From Myroides odoratus DSM 2801 (GTDB lineage Bacteria > Bacteroidota > Bacteroidia > Flavobacteriales > Flavobacteriaceae): a DNA stretch of 64,000 bases. Positions 55,110 through 57,596 of the stretch are shown piece by piece. Below the pieces are notes generated by a model. The model was not told the origin of the DNA. It worked only from the letters and a program-made list of their open reading frames with translations, and ran no database searches. Position 1 is the stretch's first letter; each line of letters begins with the position of its first letter. The position numbers and the translations under genes are program-made. The stretch covers positions 1,968,352-2,032,351 of the forward strand of contig NZ_CM001437.1 of NCBI RefSeq assembly GCF_000243275.1. Direction: 5' to 3'.

Positions 55110-56111
55110 TTACAATAAGTAAATCTGTTGTTGCGTAGCTTGGGCTCTAACTTCAGTAGGCCATAAACTGACTTGGACTTCGCCAATGTGTTGTTTGCGC
55201 AATAAAAACATACAAAGTCGCGATTGACCAATTCCACCACCAATACTCAAAGGAACTTGATCTTGTATGACCAATTGATGATACAACAAGTTCATTCTGC
55301 TACTGGTTTGAGTGAGCGCTAATTGGTGTAGCAAAGTGGCCTGATCCACGCGTATTCCCATCGAGCTCAATTCAACAGCTTGTTCTAAAACGGGATGCCA
55401 AACGAGCAAATCACCATTCAATCCTCGGTAGCCATCTTCTGTAGCCGTACTCCAATCATCGTAATCGGAAGCTCGACTATCGTGAGGAACTCCATTAGAT
55501 AATGGATGGCCTACACCCACAATGAAAACAGCTTTGTGTTCTTTGACGATGGCTTGTTCTCTTTCTTTTGGACTTAATGTCGGGTAGAGTTGCAAGAGTT
55601 GTTCTGCTTGGATAAAGGAAATCGCTTCGGGAAGCATAGGCTCAATCTGAAGCTCTTGCCAGACCATAGCCTCAGTTTCCCTTAGCGCTTGGTAAATATG
55701 GCGTACAATGGCTTTTAAATAGCTTAAACAACGGTTGTGCGGAGCTATTCTCAATTCCCAATCCCATTGATCTACATAAATAGAGTGAATAGGACTGTAA
55801 TCTTCATCGGCACGGATGGCACGCATATCCGTTAGAATCCCCTCATAAAGCGGTAACTCAAGCTCTTGCAAGCGAATTCTTTTCCATTTGGCTAAAGAGT
55901 GTACAATTACAGCATTAGTAGATAAAAATTTTACAGGAAAAGAAACTGCTTTTTCAACACCATTTAAGTCATCATTAATCCCTGTCCCCTCATGGACAAG
56001 CATAGGAGATGAAATGGGATACAAATTTAGTGCTTCGCTTAGTTTTGCAGCAAAGGTTTGTTTAATTAAGGCAATGGATTTCTCGGTCTGTAAAATTTCT
56101 TTTTTACGCAT
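55110..56111 (-). CDS. asnA: Aspartate-ammonia ligase (asparagine synthetase A)
   Basis: A 333-residue enzyme that makes asparagine from aspartate, ammonia and ATP. Its length and segments fit AsnA: the N-terminus with KSIALIKQTFAAKLSEALNL, PMLVHEGTGINDDLNG, then SIYVDQWDWELRI, and the C-terminal GGGIGQSRLCMFLLRK ATP-binding motif typical of class II aminoacyl-tRNA synthetase-like folds. It is preceded on its own strand by an Asn-rich leader ORF and a terminator hairpin, so expression is probably attenuated when asparagine is plentiful. Confidence 0.95.
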   Translation of the reverse strand: MRKKEILQTEKSIALIKQTFAAKLSEALNLYPISSPMLVHEGTGINDDLNGVEKAVSFPVKFLSTNAVIVHSLAKWKRIRLQELELPLYEGILTDMRAIRADEDYSPIHSIYVDQWDWELRIAPHNRCLSYLKAIVRHIYQALRETEAMVWQELQIEPMLPEAISFIQAEQLLQLYPTLSPKEREQAIVKEHKAVFIVGVGHPLSNGVPHDSRASDYDDWSTATEDGYRGLNGDLLVWHPVLEQAVELSSMGIRVDQATLLHQLALTQTSSRMNLLYHQLVIQDQVPLSIGGGIGQSRLCMFLLRKQHIGEVQVSLWPTEVRAQATQQQIYLL

Positions 56112-56137
56112 AATGGTACCTGTTAAATGTTATAAAT

Positions 56138-56166
56138 AAAAAAAGGCCCCTCGAATGAGGAGCCTT
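56138..56166 (-). promoter_or_regulatory. Attenuator terminator upstream of asnA
   Basis: Read on the minus strand, AAGGCTCCTC / GAGGGGCCTT forms a 10-bp stem (one mismatch) with loop ATTC, followed by a run of T, ending 27 nt before the asnA ATG. A terminator in the leader rather than after the gene points to attenuation. The 3' end of the leader ORF is 26 nt before it. Confidence 0.75.
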
Positions 56167-56191
56167 AAACGTTGAATAAATAATATAAATA

Positions 56192-56287
56192 TTAGCCTAT
56201 TCTCAATCCATAGAAATTCCCCTTCGAAGTGCAGATGCAATTCAAATTTGAAGAGAAATTAGTATTAGTTAAGATTGATATAAGCAT
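56192..56287 (-). CDS. Asn-rich leader peptide of asnA (putative attenuation leader)
   Basis: A 31-codon ORF with an ATG at 56287 and a TAA at 56192, just upstream of the attenuator hairpin. The middle reads TNTNFSSNLN, and five of 31 residues are Asn, all encoded by AAT (codons 8, 10, 14, 16 and 24). This is the layout of amino-acid leader peptides, with the amino acid being the product of the following enzyme, AsnA. When Asn-tRNA is scarce, stalling of the ribosome at these codons could prevent terminator formation. No competing antiterminator was drawn with confidence. A TACTTTTA (one off from TAnnTTTG) at 56318-56325 may be the promoter. Confidence 0.65.
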   Translation of the reverse strand: MLISILTNTNFSSNLNCICTSKGNFYGLRIG

Positions 56288-56360: not shown

Positions 56361-57596
56361 TTAAATTTTATCTTCTTCATTTTCAATTAAATGATCGAAA
56401 TCAGGATACAAGAAATTGTTGTAAGGGAATCGAGTGATGTGAATTTGACGAACGGTCTCATACACTTTTTTTCTAAACTCCTCAAAGTTTTCCTTGTTGG
56501 TCGCTGAGATGAAAATGGCATTATCTACACCCACTTTGTTCATCCATGTTTTTTTCCATTCCTCAATTGAATAGTGACGAGAGGTGCGTTCTGTCATTAA
56601 ATCATCTTCTGCAATCACTTCGGGATGGTAGGCATCAATTTTATTAAATACCATGATGGTTGGCTTATCATCACTTTTGATGTCTTTTAGAATATCATTG
56701 ACTGAGGCAATGTGATCTTCGAAATCATGGTGAGAAATATCTACTACATGCAAGAGTAAATCTGCTTCTCTAACCTCATCTAATGTACTTTTAAACGACT
56801 CAACTAATTGCGTTGGAAGTTTGCGAATAAATCCAACAGTATCAGAAAGAAGGAAAGGCAAATTGCCAATAACAATTTTTCGAACGGTGGTATCTAAAGT
56901 CGCAAATAGTTTATTCTCAACGAAAACTTCACTTTTTCCAATGGCATTCATTAACGTCGATTTACCCACGTTGGTGTACCCAACAAGTGCCACGCGAACC
57001 ATAGCTCCACGATTACTACGTTGAGAAGCCATTTGCTTGTCAATTACTTTTAATTTTTCACGCAACAAGGTAATTCTATCGCGAACGATACGTCTATCTG
57101 TCTCAATTTCTGTCTCTCCAGGACCACGCATCCCAATACCTCCACGCTGTCTTTCCAAGTGGGTCCACATTCCCGATAAACGAGGAAGTAAGTATTGAAA
57201 TTGAGCGAGCTCTACTTGCGTTCTCGCATAGGAAGTCTGTGCGCGTTGAGCGAAAATGTCTAAAATTAAGTTGGTTCGGTCTAAGACCTTACAGTCGAGT
57301 ATTCTAGTAATGTTCTTTTGCTGACCTGGTGAAAGTTCATCATCAAATATGACCGTGTGAATATCGTGTTCGACAATATATGATTTGATCTCCTCCATTT
57401 TTCCCGTTCCCAAGAAAGTCTTCGCATTGGGCTGATCTAATTTTTGACTAAAACGCTTGTGTACTTCTCCACCTGCCGTAATAGTTAAAAACTCTAACTC
57501 ATCCAAGTACTCATTCAACTTCGCTTCATCTTGATCTCTATTGATAATACCTACAATAACAGATCTTTCAAAATTTATTTCTTCTCTTTCAATCAT
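56361..57596 (-). CDS. hflX: GTPase HflX
   Basis: A 411-residue ribosome-associated GTPase of the HflX family, known for splitting stalled 70S ribosomes. The G1 motif is GYTNVGKST, G3 DTVGF, G4 NKID; the family N-terminal domain includes TKTFLGTGKMEEI-type sequence and DDELSPGQQKN, and the linker RGGIGMRGPGETEIETDRR is characteristic. It is transcribed from a TAATTTTG -7 element that overlaps a palindrome (57604-57619). The C-terminus ends close to the asnA leader, without a clear terminator between. Confidence 0.95.
   Translation of the reverse strand: MIEREEINFERSVIVGIINRDQDEAKLNEYLDELEFLTITAGGEVHKRFSQKLDQPNAKTFLGTGKMEEIKSYIVEHDIHTVIFDDELSPGQQKNITRILDCKVLDRTNLILDIFAQRAQTSYARTQVELAQFQYLLPRLSGMWTHLERQRGGIGMRGPGETEIETDRRIVRDRITLLREKLKVIDKQMASQRSNRGAMVRVALVGYTNVGKSTLMNAIGKSEVFVENKLFATLDTTVRKIVIGNLPFLLSDTVGFIRKLPTQLVESFKSTLDEVREADLLLHVVDISHHDFEDHIASVNDILKDIKSDDKPTIMVFNKIDAYHPEVIAEDDLMTERTSRHYSIEEWKKTWMNKVGVDNAIFISATNKENFEEFRKKVYETVRQIHITRFPYNNFLYPDFDHLIENEEDKI

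Follow-up and report, generated by a model that had tools for sequence, protein, structure and literature searches.

Asparagine-rich leaders upstream of asnA in Myroides odoratus and other Bacteroidota: a probable family of ribosome-mediated attenuators

The trp, his, leu, thr, phe and ilv leaders of Proteobacteria are attenuators which depend on a ribosome translating a leader peptide. The sequences described here share with them a short open reading frame (ORF) rich in the end product, mutually exclusive 2:3 and 3:4 pairings with a putative 1:2 pairing, and a terminator placed before a biosynthetic gene. They differ by the amino acid and the gene (Asn and asnA), by their presence in Bacteroidota, by their tandem arrangement in a third of the leader-bearing loci and by the lack of any Rfam leader model at its cut-off. 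It would be ordinary ribosome-mediated attenuation in which, as far as we are aware, the amino acid and the gene are new: we know of no leader-peptide attenuator described for Asn, and of few described for any amino acid in Bacteroidota. One study is said to have predicted attenuators in Bacteroidetes/Chlorobi too. Other bacteria reach the same physiological aim by different means: AsnC controls asnA in E. coli and a T-box controls asn genes in Firmicutes, that is, a regulator protein or a tRNA-binding RNA, without leader peptide. The Bacteroid-trp motif (RF01692), which we take to be a Trp attenuator, is found in Bacteroidetes as the asnA leader is; it does not appear among the Rfam matches of our sequence. 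In the sections of Weinberg et al. 2010 (PMC2864571) which concern it, this motif is listed as a likely cis-regulatory RNA of Bacteroidetes. Neither asnA nor asparagine appears in the main text of that paper, of Naville and Gautheret 2010 (PMC2965389) or of Seliverstov et al. 2005 (PMC1262725), the last of which treats Actinobacteria; an Asn leader may have been reported elsewhere.

We have studied a window of 64,000 nt from Myroides odoratus DSM 2801 (contig NZ_CM001437.1, positions 1,968,352–2,032,351). The features of interest are collected in Table 1. A first-pass annotation, made from the letters alone, had described an ORF of 31 codons, five of them AAT, a terminator hairpin of 10 bp with a T-run and an asnA start 27 nt further on, and had read them as an attenuator. 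All of these elements are there on the minus strand: the ORF has five Asn codons, all of them AAT (codons 8, 10, 14, 16 and 24), four of which lie in the stretch TNTNFSSNLN as had been claimed, the stem runs from 56166 to 56143 and the ATG of asnA is at 56111, 27 nt past position 56138. The intergenic region between hflX and asnA has 249 nt. When it is free, the leader folds into the 1:2 hairpin and the terminator; in the absence of a stalled ribosome this hairpin would keep segment 2 paired. In the predicted antiterminator GGGGA (56222–56218) pairs with UCCUC (56161–56157) in the 5' arm of the terminator, with more pairs in between. A sigma-70 promoter scan gave nothing useful; such a scan does not cover the promoters of Bacteroidota, and no promoter of this kind could be located by eye. 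The best AsnB match in this genome has 55.6 bits, as compared with a family cut-off of 267.1; since no AsnB reaches the cut-off, asnA is probably its sole asparagine synthetase.

Table 1. Position of the leader elements and neighbouring genes in the window
Feature	Coordinates	Strand	Evidence or properties
Asn-rich leader ORF, 31 codons, MLISILTNTNFSSNLNCICTSKGNFYGLRIG	56192..56287	-	ORF reading; homologous leaders in relatives
Asn codon cluster, codons 8-16, four AAT; proposed stall site	56240..56266	-	
Segment 1:2 hairpin, AAUUUCUCUUC...GAAGGGGAAUUU	56213..56260	-	-14.4 kcal/mol, z -2.6
Predicted antiterminator	56157..56222	-	Fold with ribosome; co-variation across 24 type A leaders
Intrinsic terminator stem-loop	56143..56166	-	10 pairs, 6 G-C, 4-nt loop
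Terminator T-run	56136..56142	-	Tail TTTTTATTTA
asnA, aspartate--ammonia ligase, putative controlled gene	55110..56111	-	TIGR00669, 397.1 bits, cut-off 292.8
hflX, upstream neighbour, same strand	56361-57596	-	

The ORF is not remarkable by itself, since 49 of 3000 dinucleotide shuffles of the window spacer also yield an ORF with at least 5 Asn. A terminator-like site is found in 151 of 5000 shuffles of the 249-nt region. The combination is remarkable: a terminator and an ORF with at least 5 Asn in the right order appear in a single one of 5000 shuffles. In a residue control, ORFs of up to 40 codons were counted at the 136 usable asnA loci described below. An ORF with at least 5 Asn by the terminator is found at 27 loci; the same count is 7 for Leu, 3 for Phe, 3 for Ser, 2 for Lys and at most 1 for any other residue. 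When the dinucleotides of these regions are shuffled, Asn comes out at 0.08 loci. No other residue shows a comparable enrichment in the leader ORFs before asnA.

The gene asnA occurs patchily. It is present in 5 of 61 genomes of the genus and, in other samples, which overlap, in 30 of 397 genomes of the family, 9 of 395 of the order and 21 of 395 of the phylum. Its patchy distribution in the genus suggests either gain by transfer or frequent loss. All five asnA loci of the genus have an Asn-rich leader and a terminator, three of them with at least 7 Asn: examples are MYQSLNNNNANNNLNRAFDSKGLYIVYDLS (L004) and MILRSNNFSANNNLNNSIRSGRLLH (L005). We have assembled 140 asnA loci, 80 of them named, among the matches listed, the others from the family, order and phylum searches; four have too little upstream DNA or no start, so that 136 are usable, with some duplicates (L006 and L121 are on one contig, L119 and L120 are one place). 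A terminator with a nearby ORF containing at least 4 Asn was automatically detected at 29 of these 136 loci and was not detected by this rule at the other 107. The conservation of the leader and of its Asn enrichment, proposed beforehand as a check on the attenuator, is thus apparent in the genus and at 29 loci of the wider set. The leader occurs in the named hosts Hymenobacter, Solirubrum, an uncultured Mesonia, Vaginella and a Bacteroidales MAG. The rule detected no leader in the 57 usable loci among L028–L085, which are largely from Prevotella and other Bacteroidales. L135, detected by the rule with scattered Asn, was not listed as a leader; the weak cases L122 and L134 were retained as type B.

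Conservation with respect to the nearest relative, L002, covers the whole spacer and not the leader alone: identity is 97% in the terminator, 89% in the ORF, 88% in the stretch between hflX and the ORF and 62% in the third positions of asnA. Codon 8 of the window leader is Asn, it is Thr in L002. The presence of hflX upstream on the same strand brings in another reading, namely that the hairpin is the terminator of hflX and the ORF a chance product of an AT-rich spacer, as the 49 shuffles mentioned above would allow. We consider it highly improbable. The end of hflX is 195 nt away from the stem, and the leader remains with asnA when the upstream gene is a different one: an hflX-like C-terminus is found by eye upstream of L001–L004, whereas other sequences are found upstream of L005 and others. 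Furthermore, Asn enrichment, terminator and antiterminator recur at other loci.

The leaders can be classified into two types. The 24 leaders of type A have a cluster of Asn codons followed by a segment which resembles the 3' arm of the terminator. The 14 leaders of type B are nearer to the gene: they have a run of Asn, in many of them followed by SPPG-like residues, and a GCCTGC-like terminator. The window contains a single type A leader. At ten loci both types are found in tandem, first A and then B: seven were detected by rule (L014, L020, L086, L087, L088, L115 and L117) and three by eye (L090, L095 and L100). In these last three the reading frame of the type B leader extends through its terminator. 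With L115 there are four loci at which it extends into the terminator or past it, unlike a textbook leader.

When 14 chosen genomes were searched with an RNA model (R1) built from the 24 type A leaders, 13 of them gave the asnA leader with 73–113 bits, scores obtained on training sequences; in the fourteenth genome (G757) asnA, L116, has no leader. The best other match has 49.4 bits in the 14 genomes and 51.0 bits in 60 relatives, the latter with stricter filters. In the genomes searched with R1 no second type A copy was seen, although the search would overlook weaker leaders. Of the 33 lesser loci (L154–L186) only L171 and L186 combine a terminator with an adjacent ORF of 6 or more Asn. L186 appears to be due to chance. 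In L171 a Met- and Asn-rich ORF is found about 600 nt before a metX-like gene.

Across the 24 type A leaders, compensatory changes are found at 8 of the 10 pairs of the terminator. The covariation score of the terminator together with the inner 1:2 helix is 0.487, as compared with 0.272 in shuffles, none of which out of 500 is as high, and with 0.235 at best when the alignment is slid. On two other measures the leaders are not exceptional, 27 and 138 of 500 shuffles scoring as high. In the MAFFT alignment A1 the 1:2 helices are 74–75% paired and 5 of 8 pairs have two-sided changes, counts which are probably too low because A1 is out of register for this helix in L001–L004. Folding z values of the 1:2 hairpin are -1.7 or lower in 21 of 24 type A leaders, and mostly near zero in type B.

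The pairing of segment 2 with the terminator, which would form the antiterminator, is the strongest test of the family. In type A (24 leaders) the cognate duplexes have a mean of -15.2 kcal/mol versus -11.0 for the non-cognate ones; in type B the values are -13.1 and -9.8 kcal/mol for 13 leaders, since L095 was dropped, having no type B terminator by the script rule. None of 20,000 permutations reaches the cognate advantage in either type. With row and column means removed, 22 of the 24 type A leaders pair better than expected; when a single leader is taken from each group, the groups being set by hand, the numbers are 16 of 17 for type A and 10 of 11 for type B. The window copy is a poor representative: its duplex of -8.5 kcal/mol is the weakest and least specific of the 24, and its residual has the wrong sign (+0.9, rising to +1.3 when each group is represented by a single leader). 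An antiterminator which would exclude the terminator is predicted across the family, and is weak for the window copy alone.

We have also folded the RNA downstream of a placed ribosome, which is the only part considered in this stall model. When the ribosome sits on the best Asn codon, a choice which favours the model, half or more of the terminator 5' arm is sequestered in all 24 type A and all 13 type B leaders; when it sits on the stop codon this is the case for none of type A and one of type B. Without ribosome the arm is also sequestered in 13 of 24 and 6 of 13 leaders, respectively. The mean stall score over all Asn codons is 0.79 in type A and 0.77 in type B, versus 0.45 and 0.47 with a shuffled segment. 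Single leaders do not reach significance: shuffles are as high in 11 of 40 cases for the window, 15 of 40 for type A of L088 and 22 of 40 for type B of L100. For the window leader the antiterminator is the predicted fold when the ribosome is stalled at codon 8 or 10 and the 3' arm of the terminator has not been made; a stall at codon 14 or 16 gives no antiterminator in the fold, in which pairing across the ribosome was allowed. Once it is complete, the terminator is the better fold in every state of the ribosome, so that, according to these folds, the window switch must be kinetic, its choice being made during transcription.

The mechanism we propose is as follows. The polymerase would transcribe the leader ORF with a ribosome behind it. 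When asparaginyl-tRNA is plentiful the ribosome would pass the Asn codons, segment 2 would pair again with segment 1 or be covered, the terminator would form and transcription would end before asnA. When asparagine is short the ribosome would stall on the AAT codons and cover segment 1; this would leave segment 2 free to pair with the terminator 5' arm, and the polymerase would continue into asnA. Computation shows the parts, how specific they are for the residue, that they are conserved and that the alternative pairings co-vary. From these results we infer that the ribosome stalls, that the charging of the tRNA is the signal and in which direction the gene responds. As judged from sequence, the asnA leader family has the three elements to be expected of ribosome-mediated attenuation: an Asn-enriched ORF, an intrinsic terminator and a predicted antiterminator. 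Most likely the family is a real one and senses the charging of tRNA-Asn. The attenuation reading of the first-pass annotation gains support from the conserved leaders, the Asn-specific enrichment and the co-varying antiterminator, and we are rather confident that a ribosome-mediated transcription attenuator sensing charged tRNA-Asn precedes asnA. The window copy is one of the weaker members and its functional case rests mainly on its relatives.

A leader of the TnaC kind, in which the nascent peptide is arrested and senses free asparagine in the ribosome instead of uncharged tRNA-Asn, would use the same parts, and sequence cannot separate it from stalling at codons. Arrest peptides usually retain fixed residues, whereas the leader peptides vary freely outside their Asn codons: those of two close relatives differ at 7 of 31 residues, and the number of Asn ranges from 4 to 11 with ORF starts as set by the script. 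Arrest of this kind is therefore very unlikely. It is hardly credible that the leader is a T-box binding tRNA-Asn, another riboswitch or a protein-binding leader, with an incidental ORF: asn genes are under T-boxes in Firmicutes, and the window leader folds well (z -5.7), but enrichment of Asn at the codon level has no role in any such RNA. Moreover, no Rfam family reaches its gathering score in the window, and in six further leader loci (four of asnA, one of asnB and one of hisG) only a tRNA was found; the best match below threshold at the leader is Phe_leader, with 25.1 bits versus a gathering score of 55. Attenuation by stalling at Asn codons remains our preferred reading.

As a positive control we scanned hisG, asking for at least 3 His: a His-rich leader before a terminator is found in 16 of 17 relatives (L251–L267), for example MLSNQLHHHHSHYCSQAMC. 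These leaders of Flavobacteriales have the same order and layout as those of asnA, but with His codons (typically HHHH) and one leader per locus in the scan. An Rfam search of the hisG leader locus L252 gave no match, and the relevant passages of the papers cited above do not mention such His leaders in Flavobacteriales. A search for hisG in the window genome gave no match; the organism is possibly a histidine auxotroph. Met-rich short ORFs are found before terminators upstream of metX-like genes at 3 of 21 loci (L284, L285 and L287); L285 has two of them in tandem.

Asn leaders also exist before asnB but are rare. A clear one is found at 1 of 24 asnB loci of relatives (L208). In the family of L208, one family of the order, an Asn leader and a terminator precede asnB in three of the four genomes sampled (L217, L218 and L219, not L220); an example is MNIRNINNCNNLNTPLRLRQ. 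Among 53 other asnB loci (23 from relatives and 30 from the class) only L232 has one, which is borderline. Since AsnA and AsnB are unrelated enzymes, the attenuation logic was probably acquired twice.

In a quick asnA tree with 95 of 133 rows, in which the unlabelled rows of the 80-locus scan were thinned to one in three, 27 of 28 leader-bearing rows fall inside one group of 36 (support 92), several of them on long branches with unsure placement. Seven changes account for the presence and absence of the leader on the tree. From this grouping and from the persistence of the leader when the upstream gene differs, it seems that asnA and its leader travel together and have been lost repeatedly.

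Whether Asn leader attenuation is widespread in Bacteroidota, with separate origins on asnA and asnB and often doubled into a tandem of different types, we consider slightly doubtful. If this is true, the effects of the two terminations would be multiplied in a tandem, and the response to a shortage of asparagine would be a steep on/off one. The set collected here (24 leaders of type A, 14 of type B, ten loci with both) is suitable for tests of tandem attenuation and for the definition of an RNA family. The matching leaders in M. odoratus and its relatives suggest that asnA is turned on in these bacteria when asparagine is scarce, and an attenuator would explain how a genome with a single asparagine synthetase could adjust it without devoting a regulator protein to the task.
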